DNA of 26,404 bases from a virus, in the IMG/VR virus record IMGVR_UViG_3300045049_000102, positions 1-26,404 of that record. The stretch is one strand, 5' to 3'. This document shows, piece by piece, positions 15,704-24,509 of the stretch. Positions within the stretch are counted from its first letter, which is position 1. Every line of letters begins with the position of its first letter. Under the pieces are notes generated by a model, which saw nothing but the letters and a program-made list of their open reading frames with translations, did not search any database and was not told where the DNA came from. Position numbers and translations under genes: made by a program.

Positions 15704-16029
15704 TGCTCACGCCAAAACAGGCATCTGCAATGTGGTGCCCGATGGTGCGCGTAGCGGCGCAGCAGCCGGACAACCTCGTGCTGGCAAACCAAGTCGTATT
15801 CAATCGCCTGCAGAAGGGACCAGACGTCATTGTGCCGACAAGCGGCTGCTGCATTGCTGACAAATGTGCCATGTGGCGTTGGGGCGAGACGAAAACGGAA
15901 TGGCAACTCAAAGTCGTGGAACTCGGGCAAGGCATGAAGCGCGCAGATAACGTGCCCGTCGAGGTTCCGACGAGTGGCTACTGCGGTTTGGCAGGTACCC
16001 CGAAAATCGCTGGAGGGCTGCAGCCTTGA
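15700..16029 (+). CDS. Hypothetical 109-aa Cys-containing protein
   Basis: AAAGGAGAACC precedes the ATG pair at 15700. A CCIADKCAMWRW motif sits near residues 50-61, an arrangement (Cys pair followed by MxWRW) that I recognise from small unnamed phage proteins. VPTSGCC and VPTSGYCG recur as an internal near-repeat. The stop overlaps the TTG start of the next gene. Function unknown. Confidence 0.65.
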   Translation: MMLTPKQASAMWCPMVRVAAQQPDNLVLANQVVFNRLQKGPDVIVPTSGCCIADKCAMWRWGETKTEWQLKVVELGQGMKRADNVPVEVPTSGYCGLAGTPKIAGGLQP

Positions 16030-16397
16030 CGGAACAACACGACATCGACACCCGACTGGACAACTGGTCCCGCTGGCTCCGCTCCCTGGAGCGCAACCGC
16101 GGCTCGTGCATCACCGGCATCATCTGCGCCAACATGCGCGAGGCCGCGCTCGGCAACGTCTGGAGCGGCCACGACGCGCCAGAGCCGATCGACACGGACG
16201 ACGCCCAGCGCATCGAGCGCGCCATGCGGAGCGTCATCAAGCCAAAGCGCGACGCACTACGCCTGCACTACGTGGAGGGCGCCCGGTGGCAAATCATCTG
16301 CCGGCGCGCACACGTGCGGGTATCGCGCGAGCACTTCGACATGGTGATGCGGCAGGCCCGCGAGGCGGTAGAATGGCAGGTCAACAAGGAGCTATGA
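16026..16397 (+). CDS. Candidate Q-type late antiterminator
   Basis: The 123-aa protein uses a TTG start at 16026, inside a TTGA overlap, with GGAGG about nine bases upstream. Its C-terminal half (KPKRDALRLHYVEGARWQII CRRAHVRVSREHFDM) follows the L-HY...W..I.RR......F pattern of Q-like proteins that carry a helix-turn-helix. It lies a short distance upstream of the late promoter and terminators, where Q is found in lambdoid phages. The family call is by pattern and position, so moderate. Confidence 0.55.
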   Translation: MTEQHDIDTRLDNWSRWLRSLERNRGSCITGIICANMREAALGNVWSGHDAPEPIDTDDAQRIERAMRSVIKPKRDALRLHYVEGARWQIICRRAHVRVSREHFDMVMRQAREAVEWQVNKEL

Positions 16398-17680: not shown

Positions 17681-17713
17681 AGCCCCGCGATCAGCAGTGA
17701 TCCGGGGCTTTTT
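17681..17713 (+). terminator. Strong terminator after PR'
   Basis: AGCCCCG (17681-17687) pairs with CGGGGCT (17703-17709), with a nested GATCA/TGATC stem and GCAG loop, then TTTTT (the last two arm T's plus TTT). Without antitermination it should stop late transcription before the tRNA and head genes. Confidence 0.8.
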
Positions 17714-17821: not shown

Positions 17822-17897
17822 GTGGCCGTAGCTCAGATGGTAGAGCCGTGGATTGTGATTCCACTGGTCGTGAGTTCAATTCTCACCGGTCACCCCA
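17822..17897 (+). tRNA. tRNA-His (anticodon GTG)
   Basis: The 76 bases fold as a full cloverleaf. The acceptor GTGGCCG pairs with CGGTCAC (one G-U), the D-arm is GCTC/GAGC, the anticodon stem is GTGGA/TCCAC around TTGTGAT, the T-arm is GTGAG/CTCAC, and CCA is encoded. The discriminator base is C73, as in bacterial tRNA-His. The base before position 1 is T, so the G at position -1 normally encoded for histidine identity is missing. It lies between two terminators in the late leader, not beside an integrase. Confidence 0.92.
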
Positions 17898-17938
17898 GTT
17901 TCCCCGTCGTTGTCTCCGTCCCTCGTCCGCGAGGTTAA

Positions 17939-17975
17939 GGCCCGGCCGCCCGAAAGAGCGCCGGGCCATTTTTTT
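17939..17975 (+). terminator. Terminator between tRNA and co-chaperonin gene
   Basis: GGCCCGGC (17939-17946) pairs with GCCGGGCC (17960-17967), with two further inner G-C pairs, then ATTTTTTT. It closes the tRNA segment and would have to be passed to express the late genes. The region 17898-17938 just before it shows no gene. Confidence 0.8.
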
Positions 17976-17986
17976 GACCAAACACC

Positions 17987-18349
17987 ATGCTCAAACCCAC
18001 CGGCAACCGCATCGTCGTCCGCCTGGACGAGAACCTGCCCACCGCAATCGATGGCTTCGTGCTGCCTCCGAAGACCGACGCATGGCGCGCGAAGGATGGT
18101 GCCGTCGAGGGCATGAACCGCGGCACGGTCGTTGCCGTCGGCCCGGGCATGCGCCACCCGAAGACGGACAAGCTGCTGCCGATGGCTACCCAGGTGGGTG
18201 ACGTCGTCCGCTTCTCCGAGTTGCAGTACCACACATTCACCGAGGACGGTCACAAATACGTGCTCATCTCGGAGATGGACATCCTGGGCGTGGAAATGCC
18301 GCACCCAGCCGGGCTGGTCGATGCGCAGTTGGAGAAGGTGGCCGCGTAA
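17987..18349 (+). CDS. GroES (Cpn10)-like co-chaperonin
   Basis: The 120-aa protein opens MLKPTGNRIVVRLDE like Cpn10, and at residues 23-26 has GFVL where GroES has the mobile-loop tripeptide that docks on GroEL (GIVL in E. coli). Beyond an insert (about residues 28-45) come GTVVAVGPG, QVGDVVRFSELQYHTF and KYVLISEMDILGV, the strands of the Cpn10 barrel. At 120 aa it is longer than host GroES (about 97), with a 15-residue C-terminal tail. It is the first protein gene after the late leader, so it probably helps GroEL fold the coat or other head proteins, as gp31 does in T4. No clear Shine-Dalgarno precedes the ATG. Confidence 0.88.
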   Translation: MLKPTGNRIVVRLDENLPTAIDGFVLPPKTDAWRAKDGAVEGMNRGTVVAVGPGMRHPKTDKLLPMATQVGDVVRFSELQYHTFTEDGHKYVLISEMDILGVEMPHPAGLVDAQLEKVAA

Positions 18350-18489
18350 TGGAGATGTACCTTGTCATCGCGGCAATGATCGTTATCGACAAAAGCCCGT
18401 TTGCATCGCTCGCGTTGTCCTGCCTGGCTGCGGTCATCGTCGCCAGCAAACTGCCCAATCAGCTACGCAGGATGAGGAAGGCGAAATGA
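18349..18489 (+). CDS. 46-aa two-segment membrane protein
   Basis: The ATG at 18349 overlaps the stop of the co-chaperonin gene (TAATG), and its stop overlaps the TerS start (ATGA). The product has two hydrophobic stretches (MYLVIAAMIVI; ASLALSCLAAVIVAS) and a basic tail (LRRMRKAK). Size and charge distribution recall small holins, but no lysis genes follow. The start may also be the ATG at 18355. Function unproven. Confidence 0.6.
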   Translation: MEMYLVIAAMIVIDKSPFASLALSCLAAVIVASKLPNQLRRMRKAK

Positions 18490-18878
18490 GCCGCCCGACC
18501 GATTACGACCCCGCCTACTGCGATCAAGTCATCGAGTGGGGCAAAGACGGCAAGTCGAAGGCATGGATCGCGTCGAAACTCGACGTATCACGCCAGACGC
18601 TTGAGAACTGGTGTCAAGCGCATCCCGAGTTTTTGGACGCCATTACCCGCGCCATGACCCATTCGCAGGCGTGGTGGGAAGACATGGGGCAGGCGAACAT
18701 CGTCAGCATCCAAGGCCAATCGCTGAACGCTGGCGTCTACAGCCGCTCGATGGCTGCGCGCTTCCCTGACGACTGGCGCGAGAAGAACGCCACCGAACAC
18801 ACCGGCCCCAACGGCGGTCCCGTGCAACTGGAAAGGATCGAGCGTGTCGTCGTCCGTCCTGCAAATCCAGACGCCTGA
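18486..18878 (+). CDS. terS: Terminase small subunit
   Basis: The 130-aa protein begins MSRPTDYDPAYCDQVIEWGK and SKAWIASKLDVSRQTLENWC, an N-terminal HTH of the small-terminase family that reads out the packaging site. AWWEDMGQANIVS follows, then GVYSRSMAARFPDDWREKNA and a polar C-terminus ending in a GPNGGPVQLE stretch that contacts TerL or the portal. It overlaps TerL by 35 bases, consistent with a cos/pac recognition pair. The start is fixed by an ATGA overlap. Confidence 0.9.
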   Translation: MSRPTDYDPAYCDQVIEWGKDGKSKAWIASKLDVSRQTLENWCQAHPEFLDAITRAMTHSQAWWEDMGQANIVSIQGQSLNAGVYSRSMAARFPDDWREKNATEHTGPNGGPVQLERIERVVVRPANPDA

Positions 18879-20088
18879 GGTCTTCCTACCGCTGCTGGAG
18901 CCAGCCCGTTACAAGGGCGTGCACGGCGGCCGTGGTTCAGGCAAGTCGCACTTCTTCGGCGAGATGCTCGTCGAGCGCTGCATCATGGAGAAGACCGACG
19001 CCGTCTGCATTCGCGAGAATCAGAAGTCGCTCGACCAGTCGGTAAAGAAGCTCCTCGAAAACAAAATCGCGTCGATGAACGCCGGCGCCTATTTCGAGGT
19101 GCAGGACAAGAAGATCCGCGCGCACAACGGCGGCCTGATCATCTTCCAGGGCATGCAGAACCACACCGCGGAGTCGATCAAGTCGCTCGAAGGCTACGAC
19201 ATCGCATGGGTCGAGGAGGCGCAGACGCTGTCTCAACGCTCGCTCGACATGCTGCGCCCGACCATCCGTAAGCCCGGGTCTGAAATCTGGTTCAGCTGGA
19301 ACCCGCGTTTCGAGACCGATCCGGTGGATGTGCTGCTGCGCGGCGAGTCTCCGCCTCCGAATTCGGTCGTGCTGGAAGCGAACTACCACGACAACCCGTG
19401 GTTTCCCGATGTGCTGCGCGACGAGATGGAGTACGACCGCAAGCGCGACATCGACAAGTACACGCACATTTGGCTCGGCCAGTACCAGCAGAACAGCGAA
19501 TCGCGCGTCTTCCGCAACTGGCGCGTCGAAGAGTTCGACGTCGACCCCACGCAGATCATCCGCCAGGGCGCGGACTGGGGCTTTTCGGTCGATCCGACGG
19601 TACTCGTCCAGTGCTACATCGTCGGCCGCACGCTGTATGTGCCGCATGAGGCGTACCGCGTCGGCTGCGACATCGTCGACACGCCAGCCCTGTTCCTGAG
19701 CGTCCCGGACGCCGAGAAGTGGCCTATCACGGCCGACAGCGCCCGCCCGGAGACGATCAGCCACATGCGCAAGAACGGCTTCCCTAAGATCATGCCGGCC
19801 GTGAAAGGTGCACGCAGCTTGGAGGAAGGCGTCGAGTTCTTGAAGTCGTTCGACATCGTCGTACACCCGCGCTGCAAGCACCTCATCGACGAGCTGACGT
19901 ACTACAAGTACAAGGAAGACCCATTGACGGGCCTCGTGCTGCCGGTGCTGGAAGACAAAGACAACCACGTGATCGATGCGCTGCGCTACGCCTGCGAGGG
20001 CGCGCGGCGTGCACAGAAACCACAGGCAGTGAGCCGCACCATTGCGCCTCCGCCGCGGGTCTACCACTCTGAAGGATGGATGGCGTGA
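18844..20088 (+). CDS. terL: Terminase large subunit (Terminase_3/PBSX type)
   Basis: The 414-aa ATPase/nuclease uses a GTG start with AAAGGA upstream. Walker A is GGRGSGKS (residues 28-35), Walker B IAWVEEA (120-126), and a coupling motif FSWNP follows. The C-terminal RNase-H-like nuclease shows GADWGFSVDPT, TADSARPETI and DNHVIDALRYA, each giving a catalytic Asp. Length is typical for the PBSX (XtmB) group. It pumps DNA into the prohead and cuts the concatemer. It is followed by a P22-type portal, a combination of unrelated origins seen in mosaic phages. Confidence 0.95.
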   Translation: MSSSVLQIQTPEVFLPLLEPARYKGVHGGRGSGKSHFFGEMLVERCIMEKTDAVCIRENQKSLDQSVKKLLENKIASMNAGAYFEVQDKKIRAHNGGLIIFQGMQNHTAESIKSLEGYDIAWVEEAQTLSQRSLDMLRPTIRKPGSEIWFSWNPRFETDPVDVLLRGESPPPNSVVLEANYHDNPWFPDVLRDEMEYDRKRDIDKYTHIWLGQYQQNSESRVFRNWRVEEFDVDPTQIIRQGADWGFSVDPTVLVQCYIVGRTLYVPHEAYRVGCDIVDTPALFLSVPDAEKWPITADSARPETISHMRKNGFPKIMPAVKGARSLEEGVEFLKSFDIVVHPRCKHLIDELTYYKYKEDPLTGLVLPVLEDKDNHVIDALRYACEGARRAQKPQAVSRTIAPPPRVYHSEGWMA

Positions 20089-22190
20089 GCGAAGTCACCC
20101 AAGAAATGCGCCGCCGGCTGAACCTGGCTCGCGATGCCGAAGGCGGCAACCGCAACGACCAGCTCGAAGACAACCGTTTCCGGTTCGGCGAGCAGTGGCC
20201 GGCCGCGATGAAGCTCGCACGCCAGCAGGACGGCCGCCCGGCGCTCACGATCAACAAGACCGATACGTTCGTGCGCTCGGTCGTGAACAACATGCGCGCC
20301 CAGCGTCCGCGCATCCGCGTGCATCCGGTGGCGGACGGCGCCGACGTGAAGAAGGCCGACGTCATCGAGGGCCTGATTCGTCACATCGAGGTCAACAGCA
20401 ATGCCGACCTGGCGTATGACACGGCCGGCGAGTTCCAAGTGTCGATCGGCGAGGGCTACTGGCGCGTGTGCTCGCGCTACGTCGCTGACGACAGCTTCGA
20501 TCAGGAACTGTACATCGACCGCATCCGCAACCCGTTCACGGTCTACATGGACCCGTCGGCCACGATGCCGGACGGCTCGGATGCGGAATGGTGCATCCTC
20601 ACGTCATCGATGAAGAAGGATGCCTTCCGCAAGAAATACCCTCGCGCGAAGATCGCCGACGTCAAAGACCTGGGCCCGGGCGACGATAAGGCCGTGTGGG
20701 CAAGCGCGGAAGAGGTCGTCGTTGCCGAGTACTACCGCTTCGAGGACACGCCCGATACCCTCTGCCTGCTGTCCAGTGGCATCAAGATGTTCAAGTCGCA
20801 GATCGATCACGAGGCGCTCGAATACCTCGGAGTGGAAGTCGTGCACACCCGCCCGTCCGTTCGCCGGCAACTCAAATGGTCGATCTGCTCGGCCGTCGAG
20901 GAATTGGACAAGCGCGATCTGCCCGGCAAGTACATCCCGGTCGTGCGCGCAGTCGGCGCGGAAATGATCGATAACGGCAAGGTCATCCGCTTCGGCATGG
21001 TCCGCCAGCTCAAAGACCCACAGCGCATGTACAACTACTGGCGCACGCAGGAGACGGAGTTTGTAGCTCTGGCACCGTTGGCGCCGTGGCTGATTGCCGA
21101 GGGCCAAGACGAGGGCTACGAGACCGAATGGCAGAACGCCAACCGTAAGTCGTACTCGCGCCTGACCTATAAGCCAGTCCACGACGAGTCGGGCGCCCTT
21201 CTGCCACCGCCGCAGCGCCTAACGCCGCAGCAGATCCCAGCCGCCAGCGTCAACGCTGCCATGGCCGCGAGCGAAGACCTAAAGGCCGTCGCCGGTATGT
21301 TCGATCCATCTCTGGGCGCGCCGGGCCAAGAAACGTCCGGCAAAATGGTCACCGCGCGCCAGGGCCAGTCGGACATGTCGAATTACCACTTTTACGACAA
21401 CCTGACGCGCGCCATCCGCCATACCGGCGTGATCCTGCTCGACCTCATCCCACACTACTACGACACGCAGCGCGTCATCCGCATCCTCGGCATCGATGGC
21501 GTGCCGCAGACGGTCACGATCAATGAGAAGCAGCGCGACGAGATGGGCGCGATTCAGCAGGTGCTGAACGACGTCACCGTGGGAACGTACGACGTCGTCA
21601 TGGACACCGGCCCCGGCTACCAGACGAAGCGCCAGGAGAACAGCGACATGCTGCTGGGTCTGCTCAAAACCATGCCGCAGGTTGCGCAGACGGCGGGCGA
21701 CCTCGTTGTACGTCAAATGGACTTCGAGGCTGCGCAGGACGTGGCCGACCGCCTCGCCGCAGCGAATCCGCTCGCGATGGCCGAGAAGAAACTGCCGGAC
21801 GATCTGCCAGACGACGTCAAGGCGTTCATTGCTCACCTCATGGGTGCGAATCAGCAGATGCAACAGGCGCTGCAGCAGGCCGAGATGGAGCGCAAGTACC
21901 GAATGGGCGTGGAGCAGGTCCGCCAGGCAGGCAAGCTGCAGTCCGACACGCTGTGGGCGCAGCACGAAAGCCAGCAAGAGCGCATTCGCCAAGACGGCGA
22001 GAGCCGGCGCCTGCTGGCGAAGGAGCACGCCGAGAACGTGCGCGAAGAGATCCGGTCCCGCACGAAGCTCGAAGACACGCAGATGCGCAACGACGAGTCG
22101 TGGCGCGAAGCCCGGTTGGACGCTGCAACCGATCTGCACCTGGGCCAAGACCGTGGCCCGAACAACGAATTTCACCGCGAGCACGCGTAG
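20085..22190 (+). CDS. P22-type portal protein
   Basis: The 701-aa product matches the large P22 portal family: N-terminal FRFGEQWPAAMKLARQQDGR, PALTINKTDTFVRSVVNNMR, the CONNECTOR region, and a long C-terminal helical barrel (QMQQALQQAEMERKYRMGVE). I choose the GTG at 20085 because it forms a GTGA overlap with TerL and has GAAGGA eight bases upstream; the ATG at 20076 abuts that site. The portal forms the 12-mer DNA gate at one vertex. The length is close to that of P22 gp1 (725). Confidence 0.92.
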   Translation: MSEVTQEMRRRLNLARDAEGGNRNDQLEDNRFRFGEQWPAAMKLARQQDGRPALTINKTDTFVRSVVNNMRAQRPRIRVHPVADGADVKKADVIEGLIRHIEVNSNADLAYDTAGEFQVSIGEGYWRVCSRYVADDSFDQELYIDRIRNPFTVYMDPSATMPDGSDAEWCILTSSMKKDAFRKKYPRAKIADVKDLGPGDDKAVWASAEEVVVAEYYRFEDTPDTLCLLSSGIKMFKSQIDHEALEYLGVEVVHTRPSVRRQLKWSICSAVEELDKRDLPGKYIPVVRAVGAEMIDNGKVIRFGMVRQLKDPQRMYNYWRTQETEFVALAPLAPWLIAEGQDEGYETEWQNANRKSYSRLTYKPVHDESGALLPPPQRLTPQQIPAASVNAAMAASEDLKAVAGMFDPSLGAPGQETSGKMVTARQGQSDMSNYHFYDNLTRAIRHTGVILLDLIPHYYDTQRVIRILGIDGVPQTVTINEKQRDEMGAIQQVLNDVTVGTYDVVMDTGPGYQTKRQENSDMLLGLLKTMPQVAQTAGDLVVRQMDFEAAQDVADRLAAANPLAMAEKKLPDDLPDDVKAFIAHLMGANQQMQQALQQAEMERKYRMGVEQVRQAGKLQSDTLWAQHESQQERIRQDGESRRLLAKEHAENVREEIRSRTKLEDTQMRNDESWREARLDAATDLHLGQDRGPNNEFHREHA

Positions 22191-22241
22191 TGCACCCAGC
22201 CTACCGATGGGCCAGCATCGGGTAAATCCGTGAGAGACCTC

Positions 22242-23129
22242 ATGTCCACTGAGCAGCAAAATTCGACGACCGCACGTCAAGCGGAGCGCGTCCAACCCAA
22301 CGTTGTGACGAGCGAAACCATCGCAGCCATGTATTCCGGAGCTCCCCCGACAGCGGAGCCGCCTAAGGATGAGCCGAAAGCCGGCGAGCCGGGCGAAGTC
22401 CATGGCGATGGTGACAAGGGAGAGAAGCGCGCCAAGAAGCCATTTTCGGAGCGTTTGTCCGAGGTGATCAGCCAGCGAAAGGCAGCCGAAACCGAAGCTC
22501 AGCAGGCCAAGCGTGAAGCGGCCGAACTGCGCGCCAGATTGGAAGCCATGACCGCCCAGGCCGCTCCGGTCAAGGAGGAGCCGCGCCCGAGCCGCGACAA
22601 GTTCGCCTCGGACGAGGAATACATCGAGGCTGTCGCCGAATGGACGGCCGACAAGCGTCTGGCAAAGCGTGAACAGGAGCAGGCGGAAGCCCGCGCCGCG
22701 GCTGAACGCGAACAGCTCGTGAAGGGCTGGCAGAAGGCCCAGCAGCGCGCTCGTGCAGAGATCGACGACTACGACAAGGTCATCGAAGCATCTGACGTGA
22801 AGCTGCCCGGCCACATCCACCAGGCGATTCTGGAGTCGGACGTCGGCCCACACCTGGCCTACTACTTCGCGAAGCATCCGGACGAGGCCGCGCGCTACAA
22901 GGCGATGTCGGCCACCAAGGCGCTGCGCGAACTCGGTCGGCTGGAAGATCGACTGGCAGAAGACACCGACGATACGCCGGCCCCCAAGCCCTCTCCCAAA
23001 ATCGAAGTCGAAAAATCCAAGGCGCCCGCACCCATCACTCCGGTGAAGGACGGTCGCGCGGTCAACCCGGGCCCTGCACAGAGCTTCGAGGAATACCGCG
23101 CACGCCGCCGCGCCGAGATGAAGCGGTAA
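22242..23129 (+). CDS. Scaffolding protein
   Basis: The 295-aa product is nearly all polar and helical, with a coiled coil (RKAAETEAQQAKREAAELRA) and a basic C-terminal helix ending in YRARRRAEMKR. Acid-base alternation and a C-terminal helix-turn-helix that binds coat are typical of scaffolds, and the order portal-scaffold-coat is that of P22. GAGAG precedes the ATG at 22242. The basic tail would bind the coat N-arm and be released after assembly. Confidence 0.85.
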   Translation: MSTEQQNSTTARQAERVQPNVVTSETIAAMYSGAPPTAEPPKDEPKAGEPGEVHGDGDKGEKRAKKPFSERLSEVISQRKAAETEAQQAKREAAELRARLEAMTAQAAPVKEEPRPSRDKFASDEEYIEAVAEWTADKRLAKREQEQAEARAAAEREQLVKGWQKAQQRARAEIDDYDKVIEASDVKLPGHIHQAILESDVGPHLAYYFAKHPDEAARYKAMSATKALRELGRLEDRLAEDTDDTPAPKPSPKIEVEKSKAPAPITPVKDGRAVNPGPAQSFEEYRARRRAEMKR

Positions 23130-23192: not shown

Positions 23193-24509
23193 ATGAGTGG
23201 CAATACCTTGCTTAACATCGTCGACATCACCAACGAAGGGTTGATGATCTTCGAAAACGAACTGGTCCTGGCTGACAAGATCAACCGCGACTACGATGAC
23301 CGCTTCGGCATCGACGGCGCCAAGATCGGTTACACGACCAACGTCCGTCGTCCGGCCCGTTACAAGGGAACCGCCGGCCCGGCGCTGAACATCGAGGGCA
23401 CCGTCGAATCGAGCATCCCGGTGACGCTGACCACGCAGTTCCACGTCGATACGCAGTTCCAGACGTCGGACCTGCTGCTGTCGATGGACATGTTCTCGAA
23501 GCGCGTGCTGCAGCCGGCAATCGCCACCCTGGCAAACCGCGTCGACTACGACATCGCCATCGGCATGCGCAACAACTTCTTCAACATCGTCGGCACGCCG
23601 GGCACCGCCCTGACCACGACCGCGCCGTTCCTGCAGGCAGGCGCCTGGCTGGATTCGGAAGCCGTGCCGCGCGACGGCAACCGCCACATGGTCCTCGACC
23701 AGTGGACGCAGGCCTCGATGGTTGGCGCCCTGCAAGGCCTGTTCAACCCCCAGGCGCAGATCGGCGAGCAGTACAAGAAGGGCATGATGTCCAAGCAGAC
23801 GCTGGGCTTTGACTGGTACATGGACCAGAACATCACCGCCAAGTCGTTCGGCGCCCTGGGCGGCTCGCCGCAGTACGACACCTCGCAGACCTCGTCCGCT
23901 GTCATCTCGGATGGCTGGGTGGCCTCGGGCACGCTGGGCACGAAGGGCTGGAGCAACAGCACTGCCGTGGTCAAGGTGGGCGACGTGTTCTCGATCGCGA
24001 ACGTCAACGCGGTGAATCCGCAGAACCGCCAATCGGTCGGAAAGGCTCGTTACTTCGTCGTGCTGCCGCCGTCGGGCACGCCGTCGAACGGCACGTACGC
24101 ACCGAACTACGACCCGGTGACTGGCGCCGACATGGGCGGTACCTACACCTCGGATGGTTCGGGGAAACTGCAACTGACCGTGGCGAACGCCTGCATCACC
24201 GGCGGCGCTTTCCAGTCGGTCGACGCCGCCCCGGTCAACAGTGCCGCCCTGACCTTCGTCGCCAGCTCGGCCGCATCCGGCCCGCAGAACCTCGCGTTCC
24301 ACCGTGACGCCTACACGCTGGTGTCGGCTGACCTGCCGCTCCCGGGTGGCGTGGACATGGCCGCGCGTGCGTCCCACAAGGACATCGGCATGTCCATCCG
24401 CGTCGTGCGCCAGTACACGGTGAACAACGACGCACTGCCGACCCGCCTGGACATCCTGTACGGCCACGCCCCGCTTTACCGCGAAATGGGCTGCCGCGTC
24501 TCCGGCTAA
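23193..24509 (+). CDS. P22-type major coat protein
   Basis: The 438-aa product has the P22/HK97-fold coat pattern: an N-terminal helical region (SGNTLLNIVDITNEGLMIFE), MNNFFN-type helices, an inserted domain at about residues 220-330 with GALGGSPQYD and beta-strands corresponding to the P22 I-domain, and a closing SHKDIGMSIRVVRQYTVNND near the A-domain end. AGGAG stands six bases before the ATG. It forms the icosahedral head. P22 coat is about 430 residues, so the length fits. Position after the scaffold and flanking terminators suggest separate control of its level. Confidence 0.93.
   Translation: MSGNTLLNIVDITNEGLMIFENELVLADKINRDYDDRFGIDGAKIGYTTNVRRPARYKGTAGPALNIEGTVESSIPVTLTTQFHVDTQFQTSDLLLSMDMFSKRVLQPAIATLANRVDYDIAIGMRNNFFNIVGTPGTALTTTAPFLQAGAWLDSEAVPRDGNRHMVLDQWTQASMVGALQGLFNPQAQIGEQYKKGMMSKQTLGFDWYMDQNITAKSFGALGGSPQYDTSQTSSAVISDGWVASGTLGTKGWSNSTAVVKVGDVFSIANVNAVNPQNRQSVGKARYFVVLPPSGTPSNGTYAPNYDPVTGADMGGTYTSDGSGKLQLTVANACITGGAFQSVDAAPVNSAALTFVASSAASGPQNLAFHRDAYTLVSADLPLPGGVDMAARASHKDIGMSIRVVRQYTVNNDALPTRLDILYGHAPLYREMGCRVSG

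Follow-up and report, generated by a model that had tools for sequence, protein, structure and literature searches.

A Cpn10-family co-chaperonin gene with a lengthened docking loop before the packaging genes of a P22-headed phage fragment

The stretch of DNA analysed here (the window) spans 26,404 bases and is a virus record in IMG/VR, where it is classed as linear; it may therefore be a fragment. Its left part carries, in order, genes for a repressor, a Cro-like or YdaS-like regulator, a replication initiator, NinG, a Q-like antiterminator and NinX, followed by a tRNA-His gene and a terminator hairpin. Next comes the GroES-like gene with which this report is concerned; after it lie a 46-residue frame, which shares one base of its start codon with the GroES stop codon, the genes for the small and large terminase subunits (terS and terL), those for a P22-type portal, a scaffold and a P22-type coat, and tail-accessory genes (Table 1). 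The portal and coat belong to the families that mark the P22-like head lineage (PF16510 and PF11651) and are accompanied by a scaffolding protein (phrog_8865); these neighbours support the first-pass annotation in calling the phage P22-like, and the window is a fragment of a lambdoid, P22-headed phage.

Table 1. Features of the window and, in the last eight lines, tiny frames of related records (positions within the record named).
Feature	Coordinates	Strand	Evidence or remarks
Antitermination protein Q-like gene	16026..16397	+	phrog_79 1.5e-5
tRNA-His, anticodon GTG	17822..17897	+	ARAGORN; Rfam RF00005 63.7 bits
Intrinsic terminator, GC-rich hairpin and T run	17939..17975	+	read directly, folded, about -23 kcal/mol
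Phage Cpn10/GroES-like co-chaperonin gene	17987..18349	+	120 aa, 13.1 kDa; PF00166, phrog_3188, AlphaFold2, dN/dS
GroEL-docking mobile loop, residues 13-45	18023..18121	+	low pLDDT; alignment to Cpn10
FVL tripeptide, residues 24-26	18056..18064	+	aligns with GroES I25-V26-L27
C-terminal loop arm, residues 27-45, conserved KTDxxRxxxGxxxGxxRG	18065..18121	+	9-residue gap in cellular Cpn10
Roof beta-hairpin region, residues 53-69	18143..18193	+	collinear with Cpn10
C-terminal tail, residues 104-120	18296..18346	+	variable; predicted disordered, pLDDT 44
Terminase small subunit	18486..18878	+	phrog_309 1.3e-26
Terminase large subunit, 47.4 kDa	18844..20088	+	PF04466 110.6 bits
P22-like portal, 79.8 kDa	20076..22190	+	PF16510 569.9 bits
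Head scaffolding protein	22230..23129	+	phrog_8865 1.8e-38
P22-like coat protein, 438 aa, 46.7 kDa	23193..24509	+	PF11651 124.1 bits
Tiny frame, L023	8432-8494		
Tiny frame, L024	9936-9998		
Tiny frame, L025	3474-3536		
Tiny frame, L026	1439-1495		
Tiny frame, L031	7045-7113		
Tiny frame, L033	3778-3849		
Tiny frame, L034	9942-10004		
Tiny frame, L091	774-845		

The intrinsic terminator ends 11 bases 5' of the GroES start codon, and a like hairpin with a T run stands at the same position in 19 of 21 close relatives, several of them near-copies. A simple promoter and terminator scan missed the window's terminator, which came to light when the DNA was read and folded. The product of the Q-like gene had no Pfam match, and a Q-like gene is recognisable 5' of GroES in most of the close relatives. 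On the natural reading, the terminator would be read through under the Q-like antiterminator. The GroES gene had been proposed to head the packaging operon, before terminase and coat, and its place beside the Q-like gene and the terminator agrees with this; that the operon is a late one is suggested by the lambdoid gene layout. A second hairpin followed by T residues was read by eye at 17681-17713, 5' of the tRNA-His gene, which is thus bracketed by two terminator-like sites. A tRNA gene lies in the gap before GroES in three phages, being a tRNA-His gene in the window and a tRNA-Asn gene in the related records L007 (9834-9909) and L030 (4467-4542).

The GroES frame runs from an ATG start codon to a TAA stop codon and encodes 120 residues (MLKPTGNRIVVRLDENLPTAIDGFVLPPKTDAWRAKDGAVEGMNRGTVVAVGPGMRHPKTDKLLPMATQVGDVVRFSELQYHTFTEDGHKYVLISEMDILGVEMPHPAGLVDAQLEKVAA). 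It matches the Pfam Cpn10 profile PF00166 at 51.6 bits, against a curated cut-off of 21.1, over residues 2-102 and profile positions 2-92 of 93, and the phrog_3188 'co-chaperonin GroES' profile at 50.3 bits (3.2e-13). In a search of solved structures the sequence matched the Thermus, Mycobacterium and chloroplast co-chaperonins (1e-10 to 1e-6). In an AlphaFold2 model built from 44 related sequences, the core is confident (pLDDT 84-93 as block means over residues 51-100) and the predicted fold is the beta-barrel of Cpn10; the model's top Foldseek matches in the PDB were Cpn10 chains (1p3h, 1wnr, 4pko and 1aon; E-values of 1.9e-7 to 1.6e-5), with T4 gp31 (1g31) ranking below them at 1.6e-3, and its matches in a viral structure library were phage GroES models. 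Comparison with 25 related frames gave dN/dS values of 0.07-0.29, which mark it as a frame under purifying selection rather than a chance one. The profile and structure matches, the predicted fold and the dN/dS values together confirm a genuine gene of the Cpn10/GroES family. The first-pass annotation was also accurate in detail: GFVL lies at residues 23-26, and the strands GTVVAVGPG and VGDVV at residues 46-54 and 70-74. Overlapping minus-strand frames (e.g. 17876-18304) were dropped, because selection and homology sit in the GroES frame. We likewise rejected the idea that the gene was captured recently from a host, the window's branch standing apart from the sampled bacterial GroES proteins in a tree whose deep branches are weakly supported.

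The mobile loop, with its hydrophobic tripeptide, aligns with that of Cpn10 and is predicted to be disordered on its own (pLDDT 53-72 for residues 11-40, compared with 91-93 in the core), as expected of the GroEL-docking loop that had been claimed at this position. The docking tripeptide is FVL, FIL, LYV or LWV among the relatives. A long insert had also been noticed after the loop, and it is real: the structure-sequence alignments place a gap of 9 residues in cellular Cpn10, all of the extra residues lying C-terminal to FVL, and the N-terminal loop arm (arm lengths were counted by hand) is equal in length to that of E. coli GroES. In alignment A1, K29, T30, D31, R34, G38, G42, R45 and G46 are invariant in 21 relatives.

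Outside the loop the protein is collinear with the bacterial GroES proteins of E. coli, Thermus and Burkholderia, with which it shares the Cpn10 fold and the tripeptide; it differs from them in the 9-residue loop extension, in an extra C-terminal tail and in having no groEL in its operon. T4 gp31 is likewise a phage-encoded lid of Cpn10 fold with a longer mobile loop, of 22 residues compared with 16 in GroES, but it is without roof loops, its chamber is about 8% larger and it is dedicated to a larger coat, gp23, which at about 56 kDa is described as too large for the GroEL-GroES cage (PMC6318259). The window protein is nearer to cellular Cpn10, and its residues 53-69 are collinear with the Cpn10 roof. 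The earlier proposal that it enlarges the folding chamber as gp31 does is therefore not borne out, since the roof loop is retained and the coat has a mass of 46.7 kDa. The C-terminal extension fared better in part, as the extra tail exists, but its suggested part in the enlargement is not supported, because the tail is unconserved: in relatives it is absent, different or longer, at about 6 to 30 residues. With the roof retained, the tail unconserved and the coat smaller, what the window protein shares with gp31 in these respects is only the longer loop.

Two scans of viral contigs with a GroES query yielded 40 loci in all, and GroES lies 5' of a P22-like portal gene in nearly all of those with enough flanking sequence. 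A third scan was made with the coat protein as query, in order to avoid bias. Among the records fetched in this way, with a coat identity of 49% or more and upstream sequence of 6.6 kb or more, Cpn10 lies 5' of the portal gene in every one (32 of 32), a count that includes three prophages or bins from a bacterial genome scan and many near-duplicates; the profile used was trained partly on these records, and Pfam alone, or the narrower A1 profile, agrees for most. The lineage with a Cpn10 gene in every informative record has coats of 435-443 residues. Three records were considered as true absences and rejected: L088 and L092 begin inside the terminase and portal genes, respectively, and L107, of the L108 clade, does not extend far enough upstream to reach the position that Cpn10 occupies in L108. 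Cpn10 is patchy with more distant coats (40-46% identical, about 400 residues); 11 of 15 named phages with P22-like coats had none, and none was found in the records of P22 or Sf6 by the same search that recovers the T4 positive control. The possession of some Cpn10 is, then, a fixed trait of one P22-like coat lineage, and this speaks for a connection with head building generally.

When bacterial genomes were scanned with the GroES profile no relative emerged, the pattern being too narrow; a second scan was therefore made with the coat alignment, which found prophages. Those of Paraburkholderia silvatlantica and Burkholderia sp. Ax-1719 have the gene order Cpn10-terS-terL-portal-scaffold-coat (terS assigned by position). 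Each of these bacterial genomes also contains two or three host GroES genes, which score 115-125 bits against PF00166, compared with about 60 bits for the prophage copies.

The position of the gene is not new, because a Cpn10 before terminase is already annotated in Xanthomonas phage PBR31, where a 'co-chaperonin GroES' (QIN95328.1, in MT119766.1) lies in the same place, after the gene for antiterminator Q and immediately before those for terminase, P22 portal, scaffold and coat. The PBR31 coat is 59.5% identical to that of the window, but its GroES differs, being about 32% identical over 83% of the window query and of another loop type; the main text of the PBR31 genome paper mentions no chaperonin (PMC10975493). 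Myo-, podo- and siphoviruses with GroES genes have all been described (PMC4294664, PMC9599517, PMC3012670). The groES-bearing genomes of marine podoviruses (HTVC023P-type pelagiphages) belong to another phage group (PMC9599517), as does siphovirus B8b, in which groES lies directly before the tape measure gene rather than terminase (PMC4294664). We found no discussion of an association of Cpn10 with P22-like heads in the openly licensed papers searched, which is not proof of absence.

Phages with P22-like coats also carry other forms of Cpn10. Two unlike Cpn10 genes lie close together in L036 (3175-3480 and 3526-3834), L140 (1339-1803 and 1775-2089) and L109 (3732-4019 and 4412-4825), one of each pair being nearer to ordinary GroES and the other of a phage-specific loop type; mixed rings or a division of labour are possible. 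A tiny conserved frame of 18-23 codons (M-K-K/L-x-D-L-L-P-K-x-L-R-D-K...; Table 1) lies directly 5' of Cpn10 in several records, often with a 4-base start-codon overlap, and is absent from the window type. The members of a separate subtype (L094, L097, L104, L105, L106, L108 and L112) have a short loop, of the 'SSVLSVVHESKALRG' type, that lacks the usual GGIVL pattern, and their roof region contains additional residues. In L035 (9436-9741) the roof hairpin is nearly missing (VGPDADGLAVGDVV), like that of T4 gp31.

Neither the window nor any of 39 related records yielded a GroEL gene in a search whose control detected GroEL in 14 of 14 genomes, although such absence is weak evidence where the records are fragments. 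With no GroEL from the phage, the partner should be that of the host, as it is for the lid of another phage, T4 gp31 (PMC3012670). As to clients, P22 coat folding in vivo involves GroEL/GroES, for mutants more than for the wild type (PMC2267774). The coat and the large terminase subunit of the window are both below 56 kDa, and the portal is too large for the cage; these masses are more easily reconciled with retuned binding and release, or with added late capacity, than with a lid that enlarges the chamber.

We therefore favour, with a probability of roughly 0.6, the explanation that a late-made, heptameric phage Cpn10 caps host GroEL, and that its longer loop favours phage head proteins. The Cpn10 would be made together with the late packaging and head genes, as the lambdoid layout suggests, would assemble as a heptameric ring, and would cap host GroEL either in place of or alongside host GroES. 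The longer docking loop would change binding to, and release from, GroEL, and this change may lead the chaperonin to prefer newly made phage head proteins, the likeliest clients probably being coat and terminase, both about 47 kDa. The explanation is supported by the Cpn10 identity, the conserved position before the packaging genes, the lack of a phage GroEL, the loop extension and the association with one head lineage. It is weakened by P22 and Sf6, which manage with host GroES, by the two or three GroES genes of the Burkholderiaceae hosts and by the low confidence of the loop model. It is weakened further by L005, L020 and L021, in which a GroES 80-86% identical to that of the window accompanies coats only 37-39%, and portals only 34-36%, identical; the GroES proteins of L005 and L021 branch within the window group in the tree. 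Such like GroES proteins beside unlike coats and portals indicate reshuffling between GroES and the head genes, and this counts against strict matching to the coat.

This near-constancy of GroES through the exchange of head genes would also suit a general spare lid, that is, an ordinary GroES-like protein that adds or preserves late chaperonin capacity when host GroES is limiting, has no client preference and gives the longer loop no special role. The resemblance of the roof loop and core to ordinary Cpn10 points the same way, as do the masses of coat and terminase, both smaller than gp23, for which the cage is too small (PMC6318259). We nevertheless consider a spare lid unlikely, because the loop extension is one of the protein's well conserved regions and the phage form, by its PF00166 scores, is far from host GroES, both of which suggest a specialised interaction. 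A closer analogue of gp31, dedicated to the coat, with a long loop that lifts the lid and so enlarges the chamber for coat folding, would account for an extension of 9 residues, comparable to that of gp31 over GroES (PMC6318259), and for a gene in every informative record with coats of 435-443 residues. The retained roof, the smaller coat and the unconserved tail described above all tell against it, however, as do the almost unchanged GroES beside coats of 37-39% identity and the related P22-coat phages that carry a Cpn10 without the long loop, and we regard it as decidedly improbable. Least probable is a Cpn10 fold turned to another task, as a GroEL decoy directed against host folding, a counter-defence factor or a head-associated protein: Cpn10 is extremely varied at this place in P22-headed phages, some having hardly any GGIVL-like tripeptide, but the window lineage keeps the position of the docking tripeptide and a core under strong purifying selection.

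Only tentatively would we extend the favoured explanation to the whole lineage, as an obligate 'head co-chaperonin' in which an operon-opening Cpn10 uses its long loop to retune host GroEL and paired, unlike Cpn10s may form mixed rings; on balance we doubt so general a form.

Since phage co-chaperonins are already known, the interest lies less in the existence of the gene than in its consistent association with one head lineage and in its loop, the extension of which is worth testing. The P22 coat is a classic client of GroEL/GroES, yet P22 is without a lid of its own, whereas a large sister lineage always has its own lid beside homologous coats. The two form a natural comparison for asking what makes a GroES of its own necessary to a phage and what role a longer docking loop plays.
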